64,000 nucleotides of DNA from Catellatospora paridis. GTDB lineage: Bacteria; Actinomycetota; Actinomycetes; Mycobacteriales; Micromonosporaceae. Below are positions 6,303 to 12,458 of this stretch, in pieces. Each line of letters opens with the position of its first letter. Within the stretch, counting starts at the first letter, position 1. Location of the stretch: positions 482,591 to 546,590 of the forward strand of contig NZ_ML769313.1 in NCBI RefSeq assembly GCF_009720365.1, in the 5' to 3' direction. Made by a program: the position numbers and the translations under genes. The notes under the pieces are model-generated. The model did no database searches, had not been told where the DNA came from, and worked only from the letters and a program-made list of their open reading frames with translations.

Positions 6303-6740
6303 TCAGGGTGTGCCGAACTGCCATTCCAGGCCGGGGATGTGGTCGCCGGCCTCGGTCATGATCGCCTCGACGTGCTCGCGGCCCGCTGAGGTCGGGACGG
6401 TGGCGACGGCGAACTGCCGCTGCGGCGGAGCCTCGACGTAGCCGCCGACGGTGTCGAAGGCCTTGGCCAGCCATGCCATCGCGTGGTCGTCGAGCGGCGG
6501 GTCGGCGTACACCTGCACGCTGTCGTTCGGGCCGCGGCGCACCACCTGGAAGCCACTGGCCTGCAGCACCAGCACGTCCCCGGCGGCCGCGCCGGTCACC
6601 AGGCCGGGGCTGCCCAGCAGCTCCACCAGGCCGCCCGACAGCGACTTCCCGGGCAGCACCTCGGTGATGAGCTGGCCGTCGGGCTCCACGGTGGTGAGCC
6701 GGACGTGGCCGAACTGGTCGGCTTCGCTTCCCTCGGTCAT
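6303..6740 (-). CDS. DUF4265-like small protein
   Basis: 145 residues with the layout of DUF4265 proteins: an N-terminal strand (HVRLTTVEPDGQLITEVLPG), a central GDVLVLQASGFQVVRRGPNDSV, and a C-terminal alpha/beta half with LEWQFG. It is upstream of, and probably co-transcribed with, the DUF1963 gene. The start is uncertain: ATG at 6740 or ATG at 6752, neither with a strong ribosome binding site. No catalytic motif is visible. Confidence 0.55.
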   Translation of the reverse strand: MTEGSEADQFGHVRLTTVEPDGQLITEVLPGKSLSGGLVELLGSPGLVTGAAAGDVLVLQASGFQVVRRGPNDSVQVYADPPLDDHAMAWLAKAFDTVGGYVEAPPQRQFAVATVPTSAGREHVEAIMTEAGDHIPGLEWQFGTP

Positions 6741-6819
6741 GGCGAGGATCATGCCAGCCGCCCCGGCCCCGGGGTAACCCCCGATCGCTGCAGTTTCCTG
6801 CACCCGAGCCGACCTGCCG

Positions 6820-6837
6820 CACAACCCTTCCACAACC
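6820..6837 (+). promoter_or_regulatory. Candidate SARP-type direct repeat upstream of the M4 protease
   Basis: CACAACC-CTTC-CACAACC: a perfect heptamer direct repeat with a 4-bp spacer, so an 11-bp period. A possible -10 (TACCCC) starts at 6858, 20 bp after the repeat. The same repeat occurs at 8842-8859 before the next gene. SARP activators are known to bind heptameric direct repeats of this geometry, and an AfsR-type SARP gene is adjacent at 9321-12458. Confidence 0.55.
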
Positions 6838-6897
6838 GCATGACAGCCGCGGCCGCGTACCCCTGTGGCCATGGCTGACAGGGAAGGGAAGGTCGTC

Positions 6898-8796
6898 ATG
6901 AGACGGATCTCCATGGCGCTCGCGGCGGTGCTGCTGTGCGGCGGCGCCGTCGCGCTGACCGCGCCGGCGCAGGCCGCCGGATCACCCGAGGACGCGGCGA
7001 TCGCCCGCGCGCAGGAGCTGATCAGGCTCAACCCCGCGGCGGTACGGGCCGCCGACGGTGACCGCTACGAGGTGCTCCGGGCCGCGGTCACCCGGACCGG
7101 CTCCGCCCACGTCCGGTTCAACCGGCTGTTCCAGGGCCTGCCGGTGGCGGGCGGGGACTTCGTGGTGCACGTGGCTCCGGACGGCGCCCTCGACGGGGTG
7201 TCCGTGTCGCTGGACGCGCCGGTCGCCGTGGCCACCGAGCCCCGGGTCACCGCGTCCCAGGCGGCGACCACGGCCCGGGACGCCCTGCGGGCGACCGAGG
7301 TCGGCACGCCGCAACTGATCGTCGACGGGGTCGGCGGCACGGGCCGGCTGGCCTGGCGGCTGCCGGTGACGGTCGCGACCGGGGAGGCGGAGGCGGTCGT
7401 CGACGCCGTCGAGCCCCGGGTGCTGCGCAGCCAGGCGCTGGAGCACACGGCCACCGGCACCGGGCACAGCGTCTACGGCGGCCAGGTGTCGCTGAGCACC
7501 ACGCAGACGATCTTCGACTACAAGATGATCGACCCGCTGCGCGGCAACTCGAAGACCTGCGACATGCAGCACACCACGACCGGCCCGTGTGTGACGTTCG
7601 CCGACGCCAACAACATCTGGGGCAACGGCAACCCGGCACACAACCAGAGCGCGGCCGTGGACGTGCATTACGGTTCGGCCAACACCTGGGACTTCTACCT
7701 CAATGTGCTGGGCCGGCACGGCATCTTCGACGACGGCGTCGGCACCACCTCGCAGGTGCACCGCGGCGTCGACTGGGCCAACGCCAGCTGGAGCTCGACG
7801 CAGAAGGTGATGCGCTACGGCGACGGCAGCAACGGGCTGCGGCCGCTGGTGTCACTGGACGTCGTCGCGCACGAGATGTCGCACGGCGTGACCCAGGCCG
7901 TCGGCGGCCTGATCTATTCCGGGGAGTCCGGCGGCCTCAACGAGGGCACCAGCGACATCCTCGGCACGATGGCCGAGTTCTACGCGAACAACGCCGTGGA
8001 CACGCCGGACTACCTGCTCGGCGAGGAGATCGACATCTTCGGCACCGGCGATCCGCTGCGCTACATGTACCAGCCGTCGCTGGACGGGATCTCCAAGGAC
8101 TGCTGGTACAACGGCATCGCCAACCTCGACCCGCACTTCTCCTCGGGTGTGGCCAACCACTTCTTCTTCCTGGCCGCCGAGGGCAGCGGGAACACGCCGT
8201 ACGGCACCAGCCCCACCTGCAACGGCTCGTCCGTCGTCGGCATCGGCCGCGACCGCGCCACCCAGATCTGGTACCACGCGCTGGCCAACTACTTCACCAG
8301 CGACGAGACGTTCGCCGAGGCGCGCGCGGACACCCTCGCAGCCACCGCGGACCTCTACGGCAAGTGCGGCAGCACCTACCGGACCGTCGCGACGGCGTGG
8401 GCGGCCGTCGGCGTCGGCACCTACAGCTACCCGTGGAAGCTGTGCATCCCCAAGTGGAACCTGGTCTGGGAGGAGTGGCCGCAGCCGCCGATCCTGGACC
8501 CGGGCCCGATCAAGTGGATCACCAAGGTCCAGGAGAAGGGCACCCTGGAGGTCGCCGAGGTCGCCGTCAACCTCACCCACCCGCGCCGCGGTGACCTGCG
8601 CCTGGAGCTGGTCTCCCCGGCCGGCCGGTCCTACCTGCTCAAGGCCCCCGACGCCAGGGACCGCGCGGCTGACCTGGCCGACGTCTACCAGGTGCGCCTG
8701 GGCGGGGTCGCCGAGGCCGGGGAGTGGACGCTGATCGTCGAGGACGTCGTCAAGGGCGAGCAGAGCCACCTGCGCGGCTGGAGCCTGCTCTACTAG
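6898..8796 (+). CDS. Secreted M4 (thermolysin-family) zinc metalloprotease with P-domain
   Basis: 632 residues. Signal peptide about 1-27 (MRRISMALAA..APAQAA), then an FTP/PepSY-type propeptide to about residue 195, then the M4 catalytic domain. The zinc motif HEMSH is at 325-329 and the third ligand is E349 in GGLNEGTSD. The C-terminal about 90 residues (VAVNLTHPRRGDLRLELVSPAG to HLRGWSLLY) form a proprotein-convertase P-domain, often appended to secreted actinobacterial proteases. The ATG at 6898 follows GGGAAGGGAAGG. It should be exported, self-processed and degrade extracellular protein. A strong hairpin follows at 8805-8842. Confidence 0.92.
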   Translation: MRRISMALAAVLLCGGAVALTAPAQAAGSPEDAAIARAQELIRLNPAAVRAADGDRYEVLRAAVTRTGSAHVRFNRLFQGLPVAGGDFVVHVAPDGALDGVSVSLDAPVAVATEPRVTASQAATTARDALRATEVGTPQLIVDGVGGTGRLAWRLPVTVATGEAEAVVDAVEPRVLRSQALEHTATGTGHSVYGGQVSLSTTQTIFDYKMIDPLRGNSKTCDMQHTTTGPCVTFADANNIWGNGNPAHNQSAAVDVHYGSANTWDFYLNVLGRHGIFDDGVGTTSQVHRGVDWANASWSSTQKVMRYGDGSNGLRPLVSLDVVAHEMSHGVTQAVGGLIYSGESGGLNEGTSDILGTMAEFYANNAVDTPDYLLGEEIDIFGTGDPLRYMYQPSLDGISKDCWYNGIANLDPHFSSGVANHFFFLAAEGSGNTPYGTSPTCNGSSVVGIGRDRATQIWYHALANYFTSDETFAEARADTLAATADLYGKCGSTYRTVATAWAAVGVGTYSYPWKLCIPKWNLVWEEWPQPPILDPGPIKWITKVQEKGTLEVAEVAVNLTHPRRGDLRLELVSPAGRSYLLKAPDARDRAADLADVYQVRLGGVAEAGEWTLIVEDVVKGEQSHLRGWSLLY

Positions 8797-8804
8797 GCCC
8801 GCCC

Positions 8805-8842
8805 GTGCCTGGCCGCCGGTCGCAGGGCCGGTGGCCAGGCAC
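8805..8842 (+). terminator. Hairpin terminator after the M4 protease gene
   Basis: GTGCCTGGCCGCCGG (8805-8819) pairs with CCGGTGGCCAGGCAC (8828-8842), with 14 Watson-Crick pairs and one G-T pair around an 8-base loop. There is no T-run, as is usual in high-GC actinobacteria. The last base of the stem is also the first base of the SARP-type repeat that precedes the next gene. Confidence 0.7.
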
Positions 8843-8859
8843 ACAACCTTTCCACAACC
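8842..8859 (+). promoter_or_regulatory. Candidate SARP-type direct repeat upstream of the Calx-beta gene
   Basis: CACAACC-TTTC-CACAACC: the same heptamers and 4-bp spacer as at 6820-6837. A -10-like TACCGT begins at 8869, 9 bp after the repeat. That matches the roughly 8-bp gap described for SARP-activated promoters, and differs by exactly 11 bp (one helical turn) from the first site. Confidence 0.6.
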
Positions 8860-8881
8860 CGGCCCGCCTACCGTGCGGGCC

Positions 8882-9313
8882 ATGACTCGTATCGCACGCT
8901 GGCTCACCGCCTCAGCCCTGGCTCTCCTCGCGATGATCGTGCTGCTGCCGCAGCCCGCGTCCGCCGCCGGCAGCATCCCGTGCGGACCCCAGTGCGTGGC
9001 CCTCAACCGGGACGCGGTCTGCTGGGAGAAGGAGTGGTGCGCCGTGCCGATCGTGGTCAAGGGCACCGTGCCGGCGGCGGGGTCGGTGCTGAACTACCGC
9101 ACCGCCGACGGGACCGCGGCCGCGCCCGGCGACTACGTCGCGGTGCCGTCCGGGGAGGTCTCCCTGACCGCAGCGGGTGCCGCGGTGCGGGTGTTCGTCG
9201 CGGGAGACGCGGCCCGGGAGCGGGAGGAGACGTTCGCCGTCGAGTTCGTCGACGGGGACGGCCGGGTGCTCGCCACGTCCACGGTCACCGTCCTCGACCC
9301 CGCCGCGCACTAG
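8882..9313 (+). CDS. Secreted single Calx-beta domain protein
   Basis: 143 residues with a signal peptide (about 1-28, ending PASAAG). A short region with four cysteines (CGPQC, CWEKEWC) follows, then one Calx-beta repeat: LNYRTADGTAAAPGDYVAVPSG, VFVAGD, REREETFAVEF. Calx-beta domains bind Ca2+ or serve as adhesion modules. A free-standing secreted one next to a Ca2+/Zn2+-dependent M4 protease, with a shared promoter element, suggests a partner, stabiliser or inhibitor; this is inference. The gene converges on the SARP gene with a gap of only 7 bp. Confidence 0.75.
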   Translation: MTRIARWLTASALALLAMIVLLPQPASAAGSIPCGPQCVALNRDAVCWEKEWCAVPIVVKGTVPAAGSVLNYRTADGTAAAPGDYVAVPSGEVSLTAAGAAVRVFVAGDAAREREETFAVEFVDGDGRVLATSTVTVLDPAAH

Positions 9314-9320
9314 GTCCCGG

Positions 9321-12300
9321 TCAGGTGAACGTGTCGGCCAGCGCCTCGGCTTCGGCCGGGGCGTTGGCCTTGCGGAACAGGTCGACGGCGAGCTGCCACT
9401 GCGTACGGGCCTCGCCGGGGTCACCGCTGCGGCGTGCGAGTTCGCCGAGGTCCCGGGCGATGCAGGCGGCCTCGAAGTGGTCCGGTGCGCGGCTGCGCAG
9501 GGCCTGCGCCAGGCGCAGGTAGCCGGCGGCGGCCACCGGGTCGTCGCGCTCCAGGTGGGTGCGGCCGAGGTTGGCCAGCGCGGTCGCCTCCAGGTGCCGG
9601 TCGGCGATCTCCCGGCTGAGTTCCAGCGCCCGGCCGAACTCGTCCAGCGCCGCTCGCTGGTCGCCGCGGCGCAGGTGCACGGTGCCGATGGTGTTGCGGG
9701 TGTCGGCCTCGTGGCGGCGGTCGCCGCGGTGCTTGCGTACGGCCAGGGCCTGGCGCAGGTGGTCCAGCGCGGCGTCCAGGTCGCCCAGCGCCGCGTGGGC
9801 CTGGCCCAGCCCGCTCAGCGCCGCCGCCTCCAGCCGGGCGTTACCCAGCTCCCGGGCCGCGGGCAGGGCCCGGGCCAGGTACTCCAGGCTCAGCTCGGCG
9901 CGTCCCATCCGGACGTACGCGTCGCCGATGTTGTTGAGCCCCAGCGCCACCCCGAGCGCGCTGCCGATCGACGTGTGCAGCGCCAGCGCCTGCTGGTACG
10001 CCTCCACGGCCTCGTCGTGGCGGCGCAGCCCGGCGTTGGCCACGGCGATGTTGTTGTGCACGTGGCCCTCGCCGCGCGTGTCGCCGCACCGGCGGGTCAG
10101 CGCCAGCGCCGACTGCAGCACGTCCAGCGCCTCGTCGAAGCGCCGCGTCATGATCAGGGCCACGCCCAGCCCGCTGCGCATCAGCCCTTCCGCGCCGGGA
10201 TCCCCGCAGCGCGCCGCGGCGGCCACACCCAGGCGGCACAGTTCGACCCGCTCCGCCCAGTGCCCGCGCGAGTCGAAGAACCCGGTCAGCAGGTAGGTCA
10301 GCTGCCAGGCGGCGGCGTGGCGCCCGTGCTCGGCGGCGTGCCGGACGACCGACTGCATGCCCGCCCGCTCGCCGTCGAGGAAGGCCAGCGCGGCGACCGG
10401 GTCGTCGGCGAACGGCAGCTGCGCCGGCGGGTGTGCGGGCGCGGCCCGGACCCGGTCGCGGCCCGGGTCGACGAGCCGGTTCGCGGCGTCGGCGACGGCC
10501 AGGTGCCAGTCCACGATGCGGGCGAGCGCCTCATCGCGGGCCGCGGCGGTCTCGTCGGTGGCCGCGCACTCGCGGGCGTAGAGGCGCAGCAGGTCGTGGC
10601 AGCGGTAGCGGTCCGGGGCGACCTCGCCAACCAGGTGCGCGGACACCAGCTCGGCGAGCACCCGCCGCGCCGCGGGCAGGGTCAGGTCGGCGGCCGCGGC
10701 AGCCAGGTGCCCGGTGAACGTGGCACCCGGGTGCAGGCCGAGCAGCCGGAACAGCCGCGCCGCCGGGCCTGGCAGGGCCCGGTACGCCGAGCCGAACACG
10801 GTGCGCACGCTGCGGCTGTCGCCGGGCACGGACAGCTCGTCGAGCCGGTCGTCGTCGACCAGCTCCGCGGTCAGCTCGGCCAGGGTGCGGCCCGGGCGGG
10901 CGGCGAGCTTCGCGGCGGCGATGCGCAGCGCCAGCGGCATGCCCCCGCACAGCTCGGCCAGCTCGACCGCGGCGGCGGGCTCGCGGTCCACCCTGGCCCG
11001 GCCGAGCACCTGCGCCAGCAGCGCGACCGCCGCGTGCCGGTCGAGGGCGTCCAGTGCCACCGCGTGCACCGCGTGGTGCACGGCCAGCGCGGTCGGCCGG
11101 CTGCGGCTGGTGACCAGCAGCAGGCTCGCCGCGGTCGGCGGCACCAGCGGCAGCACCTGGTCCGGTCCGGCCGCGTTGTCGAGCACCACCAGCATCCGGC
11201 GCTCGCTCAGCAGCGTGCGGTAGAGCGCGGACCGGGCGGGCAGCTCGGCGGGGATGCGCCCGGCAGGCACGCCCAGGCTGGCCAGCACCTGTGCCAGCGC
11301 CTGCGTGGGCGGCAGCGCGGTGGCCGGGTCGTGCCCGCCGAGGTCGACGTACAGCTGGCCGTCGGGGAACCGGGGCACGACGGTGTGCGCCCACCGGACG
11401 GCGAGTGCCGTCTTGCCCATGCCGCCCGGACCCGCCACGAACCCGATGCGCGGCTGCGGCCCCTCCTGCTCCAGCAGCCGGTCCAGGGCGGACAGCTCCT
11501 CGTCGCGGCCGACGAAGTGCCCCGCGGGCGCGGGCAGCTCGGCGGGCACCGGCTCGGCGTTCGGCGCGGCCGGCCTGACTAGCGCGGAGGCGGGCGCAGG
11601 GGTGTGCCCGGCGAGCTCGGAGGTCGCGGGTGGATTCGCGACGGCGGGCGTGGCCGGGTGCAGCGCCGGGTCCTCGCGCAGGATCGCGGTGTGCAGCCGT
11701 TGCAGGTCGGGCCCCGGGTCGGTGCCGAGCTCGTCGGCGAGGTGGGCGCGCACCCGCCGGTACGTGTCGAGGGCCTCCGCCGGCCGCCCGCACCGGTACA
11801 GCGCCAGCATGGACAGCCCGACCAGGCGCTCGCGGTGCGGGTGGCTGACCAGCAGCCGCTCCAGCTCGCCGACGGCGGTGCGGTGGCGGCCCAGCCGCAG
11901 CTCGGCCTCCCACAGGTCCTCCTCGGCGCACAGCCGCACCTCGTTGAGCCGCGCCGCCTCCGCGGCCGCCCAGCCGGTGGGCTCGCCGTCGGCCAGCGCG
12001 TCGCCGCGCCACAGCGCGAGCCCTTCGCGCAGCTCGCGGGCGGCGGTCTCGGGCACGCTGTCACCCAGGTGGCGGCGGGCCGAGGCCACCATGGACTCGA
12101 ACAGGTGGGCGTCGACCTCGAGCGCGGGGATGTCGAGCAGGTACCCGGCGTGCCGGGTGTGCAGGGCCGCGGGCAGGCCGCAGGCGTCGAGCGCCTGGCG
12201 TACCCGGGCGATGTGGCTGTGCAGCGTCTTGACCGCGGTGCGGGGCGGGTCCCAGCCCCAGAGCGCGTCGATCAGGCGGGACTGGTGCACGACGGTGCCG

Positions 12301-12458
12301 GCGTGCACGGCCAGCACCGCGAGCAGGGCCCGCTGGCGCGCGCCGGTGAGCACGGCCGGGCCGTCGTGACCGGCCGCCTCGATGGGCCCGAGGATGCGCA
12401 CCCCGGCGTTGCCCGCGTACGTGGGTGCGGTCGCCGGGCGGGCGCCGGTGGCGTTCAT
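9321..12458 (-). CDS. AfsR/SARP-family transcriptional activator with NB-ARC and TPR domains
   Basis: 1045 residues. An OmpR-type winged helix (about 20-100) and a bacterial transcriptional activation domain (about 115-260) form the SARP core. They are followed by an NB-ARC ATPase with Walker A GPGGMGKT (343-350) and Walker B LVVLDN, and a C-terminal array of TPRs (about 700-1040, for example ALGLNNIGDAYVRMGRAELSLEYLARAL). This is the AfsR architecture, in which nucleotide binding and TPR contacts gate DNA binding. Its likely local targets are the protease and Calx-beta genes, both of which carry CACAACC direct repeats. Its own promoter region has the perfect palindrome CGTGACGTCACG at 12497-12508. 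Confidence 0.92.
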   Translation of the reverse strand: MNATGARPATAPTYAGNAGVRILGPIEAAGHDGPAVLTGARQRALLAVLAVHAGTVVHQSRLIDALWGWDPPRTAVKTLHSHIARVRQALDACGLPAALHTRHAGYLLDIPALEVDAHLFESMVASARRHLGDSVPETAARELREGLALWRGDALADGEPTGWAAAEAARLNEVRLCAEEDLWEAELRLGRHRTAVGELERLLVSHPHRERLVGLSMLALYRCGRPAEALDTYRRVRAHLADELGTDPGPDLQRLHTAILREDPALHPATPAVANPPATSELAGHTPAPASALVRPAAPNAEPVPAELPAPAGHFVGRDEELSALDRLLEQEGPQPRIGFVAGPGGMGKTALAVRWAHTVVPRFPDGQLYVDLGGHDPATALPPTQALAQVLASLGVPAGRIPAELPARSALYRTLLSERRMLVVLDNAAGPDQVLPLVPPTAASLLLVTSRSRPTALAVHHAVHAVALDALDRHAAVALLAQVLGRARVDREPAAAVELAELCGGMPLALRIAAAKLAARPGRTLAELTAELVDDDRLDELSVPGDSRSVRTVFGSAYRALPGPAARLFRLLGLHPGATFTGHLAAAAADLTLPAARRVLAELVSAHLVGEVAPDRYRCHDLLRLYARECAATDETAAARDEALARIVDWHLAVADAANRLVDPGRDRVRAAPAHPPAQLPFADDPVAALAFLDGERAGMQSVVRHAAEHGRHAAAWQLTYLLTGFFDSRGHWAERVELCRLGVAAAARCGDPGAEGLMRSGLGVALIMTRRFDEALDVLQSALALTRRCGDTRGEGHVHNNIAVANAGLRRHDEAVEAYQQALALHTSIGSALGVALGLNNIGDAYVRMGRAELSLEYLARALPAARELGNARLEAAALSGLGQAHAALGDLDAALDHLRQALAVRKHRGDRRHEADTRNTIGTVHLRRGDQRAALDEFGRALELSREIADRHLEATALANLGRTHLERDDPVAAAGYLRLAQALRSRAPDHFEAACIARDLGELARRSGDPGEARTQWQLAVDLFRKANAPAEAEALADTFT

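Follow-up and report, generated by a model that had tools for sequence, protein, structure and literature searches.

Which protein reads the identical heptamer repeats that stand before two neighbouring genes of Catellatospora paridis? The genes lie in a 64,000-nucleotide stretch of contig NZ_ML769313.1 (the window, meaning the whole stretch that was analysed) and encode an M4 protease and a Calx-beta-like protein, the second convergent with the gene of a large SARP. The pair CACAACC-N4-CACAACC is exact at 6820-6837 (spacer cttc) and at 8842-8859 (spacer tttc), in agreement with the original prediction, which also took the SARP for a local activator of an extracellular proteolysis unit. We computed the repeats, their rarity in the genome, their register to the -10 element, their linkage to one SARP clade and the association of recognition helix with heptamer. 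Judged from these sequence comparisons, the adjacent SARP (9321-12458) very probably binds the CACAACC repeats and activates these promoters of secreted-protein genes.

The neighbour of 1045 residues was indeed a SARP/NB-ARC/TPR protein, as shown by its domain matches (BTAD, E 1.2e-45; Trans_reg_C, 1.3e-10; NB-ARC, 3e-10), with NB-ARC and TPR in the C-terminal half. It has the features of a large-type SARP: an N-terminal Trans_reg_C domain followed by BTAD, a C-terminal NB-ARC/TPR part, and heptamers of 11-bp period close upstream of a -10 element. It scored 509.6 bits against the NCBIfam model for AfsR orthologues (NF053617), which has a cut-off of 1430 bits, and so falls outside that group.

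At two or fewer mismatches the window had three matches to the repeat, whereas 100 dinucleotide shuffles averaged 0.37 and none of them reached three. The third match (6831-6848, two mismatches) takes in an in-phase GACAGCC at 6842-6848, which is also the third heptamer of the M4 promoter in six Catellatospora loci, the window's included. TACC starts at 6858 before the M4 gene and at 8869 before the Calx-beta-like gene, 20 and 9 nt past the second exact heptamer. These are the distances originally reported, but the variable spacing read from them has to be replaced: the shift of 11 bp arises because the degenerate third heptamer precedes the M4 gene, and measured from the last heptamer both promoters have 9 nt.

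The same register was seen more widely. We collected 110 tandem runs over the available loci without requiring a -10 element, removing exact duplicates and keeping sister species. Most runs had two heptamers (91), and the others had three (17), four (1) or five (1), although the rule misses some degenerate copies. TA lay exactly 9 nt past the last heptamer in 53 of the 110 runs, and every other offset from 0 to 29 had 0 to 6. Similarly, A was the second base of the hexamer at the 9-nt offset in 96 runs, compared to at most 37 at other offsets. In several target genes the ATG follows the -10 hexamer by 7 nt, as for the window's ATG at 8882; this short distance suggests leaderless mRNAs for these targets, the Calx-beta-like gene among them. 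An alternative in-frame start of the M4 gene, ATG 6871, is likewise 7 nt past its -10 element. Autoregulation of the SARP through the repeat was rejected, as the region upstream of its gene has no repeat and the window no further match at up to two mismatches.

The repeat is rare. The source genome (8.97 Mb, 35 contigs) contains three exact copies, of which contig C14 has one and the window the other two, and none of the backwards-read pattern. Allowing one mismatch added a single match, an upstream copy overlapping the C14 site, and the backwards-read pattern then also had one. Across 11 Catellatospora genomes, 25 of the 39 pairs with spacers of 0-30 had a spacer of 4.

Does the repeat travel with the SARP? 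Among 61 genomes searched, 14 contained the exact motif, with 31 exact matches altogether. It was present in every one of the 12 genomes that have a SARP at 59% identity or more (10 Catellatospora, G020 and G030), compared to 2 of the 49 genomes lacking one. G007, the only Catellatospora without a SARP orthologue, had no exact motif. A SARP of the same clade adjoins 22 of the 31 matches: next to the orthologue there are 10 upstream of the Calx-beta-like gene and 5 upstream of the M4 gene, a paralogous SARP (55-57% identity) adjoins 4, and the SARPs of G020 and G030 adjoin 3. The remaining nine comprise two beside more distant SARPs (G029), five before homologues of the C14 gene, one before a GntR/aminotransferase regulator (G009) and one that is unexplained (G016). 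Thus the repeat is not equally common before unrelated genes far from SARPs, which would have spoken against the predicted role.

We also approached the linkage from the protein side, with a profile of eight SARPs, most of them from motif-bearing loci. The 37 loci fetched by protein similarity came from the Micromonosporaceae and Pseudonocardiaceae (Catellatospora, Rugosimonospora, Catelliglobosispora, Amycolatopsis, Actinokineospora, Kutzneria, Kibdelosporangium, Actinocrispum and Actinophytocola), and 27 were new; eight (L061-L068) had been examined earlier, and L088 and L090 hold sites from the 61-genome motif scan. A tandem repeat, meaning at least one pair with no more than two mismatches, occurred in 37/37 loci, including 27/27 of the new ones. 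With a spacer of 4, the 37 loci had 25 exact pairs and 60 at one mismatch or fewer (36 loci); the other 30 spacers together gave 1 and 20. In the new loci the corresponding counts were 13 exact pairs (12 loci), 45 at up to one mismatch (26 loci) and 55 at up to two (27 loci), with 1 exact pair and 19 at up to one mismatch for the other 30 spacers together. When the heptamer was permuted, 32 of 34 versions had no exact pair, in all 37 loci as in the new ones alone, and the remaining two (8 and 5 pairs in the new loci) were the motif shifted by one base.

Among these SARPs and their relatives, recognition helix and heptamer differed in step. By alignment, residues 77, 80, 81 and 85 of the window SARP (K77, H80, S81 and R85) correspond to A84, R87, T88 and R92 of AfsR. 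The helix found beside CACAACC is RTAVK(T/S)LHSH or a near variant. Beside SARPs with another recognition helix, changed heptamers, CACAAGC and CACAACA, stood at the same place. Sister SARPs with the helix letters LYSH had CACAAGC-N4-CACAAGC upstream of a gene of the same type, and in most cases GATGAT followed after 9 nt; in their 12 loci the CACAAGC pair was exact in 6 and within one mismatch in 8, and exact CACAACC was found in none. A first filter for these operators required TA at the -10 position and found nothing common to more than 2 of the 12 loci; the operators emerged after it was dropped, the -10 being GATGAT.

To leave bases 6 and 7 free, we then defined an operator as two nRCAAnn/nRCA(A/G)nn units with a spacer of 4, followed 9 nt on by a hexamer that begins with T or has A as its second base, near a SARP. 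Of 72 SARPs, 65 had an operator by this rule, or 64 of 71 once a duplicate is left out. For 58 of the 72, the predicted site was within 2.3 kb downstream and pointed at the SARP, that is, it lay before the convergent gene. In heptamer counts that leave out the duplicate locus and L132, base 6 was C in 105 of 106 heptamers (51 loci) where residue 77 was Lys or Arg and residue 80 His or Gln, and G in 20/20 (10 loci) where a non-basic residue 77 was combined with Tyr80. Base 7 was C in 84/84 heptamers (42 loci) with Lys77 and His/Gln80; with Arg77 and His/Gln80 it was A in 13, G in 6, T in 1 and C in 2, hence other than C in 20 of 22 (9 loci). L132, which has His80 within the Tyr80 clade, lies outside the rule; its heptamers are TGCAACC/GACAACG/CACAGGC, with C at base 6 in two of three. 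Across the SARPs with an operator, bases 6 and 7 thus went with residues 77 and 80.

We placed these changes on a quick tree, subject to a long-branch warning, built from the NB-ARC/TPR part alone without the DNA-binding domain and with the duplicate included. Residue 80 alone, judged by the first heptamer, gave the right base 6 at 65/65 tips. Among the 52 tips with His or Gln80, residue 77 and base 7 changed four times each.

Several results weigh against so simple a picture. The free-base rule found no operator for 7 of the 72 SARPs; in four of these (L053, L071, L096 and L132) the motif is elsewhere or degenerate, and in L110, L131 and L137 none was found. Base 6 was mixed (3 G and 3 C, 3 loci) where Arg77 was combined with Tyr80. 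On the tree, residue 80 underwent a single change, as did base 6 in the first heptamer, and the three well-supported independent pairs for residue 77 and base 7, which all agree, are too few for significance (sign test, p = 0.25). The linkage has limits as well. Only the 27 new loci count as unseen, because the query SARPs came from motif-bearing loci, and many of the SARP-search loci are sister species and so not independent. No SARP lies near the exact match in G016 or the regulator target in G009. With all spacers of 0-30 pooled, the genus Catellatospora had 39 pairs compared to 54 for the backwards-read pattern, so the excess there is limited to a spacer of 4. In addition, the rule that residue 80 alone sets base 6, with Gln80 predicting C, failed on both PimR-type SARPs.

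These two SARPs came from a search for the PimR operator, which was found in 2 of 392 genomes of a Streptomyces-like genus. The SARP beside each operator has the helix APRHAVATLQSH (A77, Q80), and the operator GGCAAG has G at base 6. The residue-80 rule was therefore replaced. A rule in which a non-basic residue 77 goes with G at base 6 fits the PimR types; it was framed post hoc, as a hypothesis and not as a result. A loosened PimR pattern searched class-wide had matches in 2 of 246 genomes, which from their letters were judged not to be PimR operators. AfsR, with A84 and G at -34, would fit as well; as we set its register ourselves from the -10 element, this is not counted as a test.

Which genes does the system serve? 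As to a possible role in an antibiotic cluster, the genes behind all three genomic operators encode secreted proteins. The third operator is a triple, GACAACC-CACAACC-CACAACC, before the gene of a 197-aa protein whose start resembles a signal peptide by eye and which matched nothing in Pfam or NCBIfam. In the window, the M4 protease has both Peptidase_M4 and Peptidase_M4_C domains. The Calx-beta assignment of the other product held in part: the window protein, at 25.4 bits, is under the 27-bit Pfam cut-off (PF03160), but 9 of 11 scanned counterparts are above it. All 12 convergent-gene proteins scanned match Calx-beta at E < 0.001, and the others under the cut-off are those of L067 (26.1 bits) and L109 (20.6 bits). 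The window protein aligns with 15 counterparts, and its AlphaFold model has seven strands at a mean pLDDT of 78 (moderate confidence).

The two targets differ in constancy. The M4 protease is at the locus in 9 of the 10 Catellatospora with a SARP orthologue. In genome G001 it is missing, and the SARP, operator and Calx-beta-like gene are retained. In the 87 SARP loci searched, M4 relatives were found only in Catellatospora, and there was none beside the SARPs of L053, L055, L056 and L060. The conserved core target is thus the secreted Calx-beta-like protein, the constant partner, and the M4 protease is a local addition. Loci of Pseudonocardiaceae have a second operator, immediately before the SARP gene and directed away from it, and the gene behind this operator encodes a von Willebrand factor A (vWA) protein or a secreted protein of no known family; of three such proteins scanned, that of L071 was a vWA protein and those of L072 and L074 had no match.

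The same observations bear on what the unit is for. One reading accepts the SARP as the protein on the repeats and takes proteolysis by the M4 enzyme for the purpose of the regulon; it draws on the three to five heptamers, some degenerate, before the M4 gene in 9/9 Catellatospora loci that hold it, and on the place of M4 among only three targets found genome-wide. We consider it unlikely, given the G001 locus, the lack of M4 beside SARPs outside Catellatospora and the different second target in Pseudonocardiaceae. The proposed local activator of an extracellular proteolysis unit is well supported in its activator role; the role is not only local, as the C14 operator shows, and its core is not a protease. 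A rival reading is that another winged-helix activator acting in trans, for example an OmpR/PhoB-type response regulator, uses the repeats and that the SARP is a mere neighbour. OmpR/PhoB-type regulators do bind 11-bp direct repeats, and the C14 secreted-protein family and one regulator gene were found far from any SARP. This is nevertheless very unlikely: the repeat was in every one of the new SARP-search loci, and where the helix differs between sister SARPs, so does the heptamer at that position, while the sites of a trans-acting regulator would stay the same whatever helix the adjacent SARP has.

That the repeat pair reflects chance, composition or a copied intergenic segment has a negligible probability. 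The spacers in the window are similar (CTTC and TTTC), as expected of a copied segment, but other genera carry copies with unlike spacers and the register to the -10 element holds. A chance repeat was ruled out by the dinucleotide shuffles, the spacer scan and the permuted heptamers. The SARP as activator of the repeat-bearing promoters, by comparison, is supported as a prediction by the linkage, by the repeat in every SARP-search locus and by the covariation of helix and heptamer.

How might the SARP act? We take the mechanism over from AfsR, as an array of SARPs recruiting RNA polymerase under an ATP-gated NB-ARC/TPR part. SARP monomers would sit side by side on the CACAACC repeats of 11-bp period, one per heptamer, with the downstream monomer's heptamer ending 9 nt before the -10 element of an otherwise poor promoter. 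By analogy with AfsR, the SARP would keep RNA polymerase and sigma region 4 in place at the promoters, and so switch on the genes for the Calx-beta-like protein (the core), the M4 protease and the secreted protein encoded far away on contig C14. Its NB-ARC/TPR half would lock the SARP in an inactive state until a signal and ATP binding release it, and residues 77 and 80 of the recognition helix would help to select bases 6 and 7. In this scheme we infer the binding, the activation and the control by ATP.

EmbR of Mycobacterium tuberculosis is a SARP relative outside antibiotic control, acting on cell wall genes. Its SARP-like domains resemble those of the window protein (2fez, E 5.3e-32), but it has an FHA domain in place of NB-ARC/TPR (PMC10936776). 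AfsR of Streptomyces coelicolor, which acts at the afs box of afsS, has the same order of domains (winged helix, BTAD, NB-ARC/NOD and TPR; PMC10936776), and its DNA-binding and BTAD domains align with the window SARP over 250 aa. It also reads two 11-bp direct repeats that overlap the -35 region of a promoter with a weak -10 (PMC10936776). In its complex, T88 and R92 touch bases and R87 contacts the backbone further along the repeat (PMC10936776). The window SARP differs in having His and Ser at the places of R87 and T88, and its targets found are secreted proteins; the AfsR repeat has TTCAGC (PMC10936776), compared to CACAACC in 2 to 5 copies here. PimR/SARP-LAL, with CGGCAAG repeats, shares heptamers, 4-nt spacers, two or three copies, cooperative monomers, an operator beside the regulator gene and a common RCA core (PMC5930380). 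It differs in its LAL-type C-terminal half and in a main operator off the -35 box (PMC5930380), and the two PimR relatives found have G at base 6 with A77/Q80, compared to C here. PolY and RslR3, large SARPs of antibiotic clusters, resemble the window protein in length (about 1000 residues) and in combining SARP, NB-ARC and TPR parts, but the review of large SARPs lists them as regulators of biosynthetic clusters (PMC10972967). The terms 'protease' and 'extracellular' do not appear in the main text of that review (PMC10972967).

Our literature search returned no paper combining 'SARP family' and 'Calx-beta', and no title naming SARP control of secreted Calx-beta proteins. What is new here is the extent of the system: a conserved SARP/Calx-beta-like module in Micromonosporaceae and Pseudonocardiaceae; in the window's genome, a regulon of three promoters for exported proteins; and a series of naturally paired helices and operators. 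More tentatively, the module may be new to the searched literature as a whole, as an NB-ARC/TPR SARP, usually convergent with the gene of a secreted Calx-beta-like protein, with joint changes at recognition-helix residues 77 and 80 and at heptamer bases 6 and 7, and with a code that may extend to AfsR and PimR types.

SARPs are used for raising the output of antibiotic clusters. To our knowledge, the operator read by a given SARP cannot be told from its sequence. If the association holds, it would amount to a readable specificity code, in which a basic residue 77 reads C at base 6 and a non-basic one reads G, and operators of uncharacterised SARPs would be predictable from sequence. As one clade offers dozens of naturally paired regulators and operators, with helix residues and bases differing together, the question of specificity is directly testable. 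The machinery of an antibiotic-type activator apparently serves a small regulon of exported proteins here, of which the Calx-beta-like protein is the most constant member.

Table 1. Positions in the window of the proposed activator, its putative operators and the genes behind them.
Feature	Position	Strand	Details
Large SARP, proposed activator	9321..12458	-	1045 aa; winged helix + BTAD + NB-ARC + TPR, from profile matches
SARP recognition-helix region	12195..12245	-	residues 72-88; Lys77 codon 12228-12230, His80 codon 12219-12221; from alignment to AfsR
Calx-beta-like protein	8882..9313	+	143 aa; secreted (by eye); convergent to SARP; core conserved target
SARP operator (putative) of Calx-beta-like gene	8842..8859	+	CACAACC 8842-8848, CACAACC 8853-8859
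-10 element TACCGT of Calx-beta-like promoter	8869..8874	+	9 nt past last heptamer; ATG 7 nt downstream
M4 thermolysin-like metalloprotease	6898..8796	+	FTP propeptide, P-domain; secreted (signal peptide by eye)
SARP operator (putative) of M4 gene	6820..6848	+	CACAACC 6820-6826, CACAACC 6831-6837, degenerate GACAGCC 6842-6848; 11-bp period
-10 element TACCCC of M4 promoter	6858..6863	+	9 nt past last heptamer

Further observations concern operators and genes beyond these. The C14 gene (L057:6909-7502, G000:C14) has homologues behind the same operator in four other Catellatospora (L058, L059, L049 and L146). The operator also stands before genes that combine GntR and aminotransferase class I/II domains (MocR-type), at L053:7037-8494 (G020, beside a SARP) and at L145:6006-7409 (G009, no SARP near). 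Two opposed operators whose starts are about 20 bp apart (L085:11620-11672 and L086:11829-11883) lie between divergent genes of secreted-looking proteins. Beside the Calx-beta-like genes of SARPs with the helix letters LQSH (L128:5710 and L129) is a secreted-looking protein with RTX-like repeats (GGDGND), as seen by eye. Six heptamers were tried, at up to one mismatch, on 15 loci whose SARPs are more distant, and none was found. The motif may reach beyond the SARP clade: the L054 locus (G029) has five consecutive heptamers at L054:9754-9804, one of them CACAGTC and the last 9 nt before TAGAAC. Both SARPs at this locus have just 31-35% identity, and the helix of one reads TAVKTLHAH. In the window, a DUF4265 protein (6303-6755, minus strand; 33.8 bits against a cut-off of 27) is divergent from the M4 gene, and six other Catellatospora also have its gene at the locus, including one that lacks the M4 gene.

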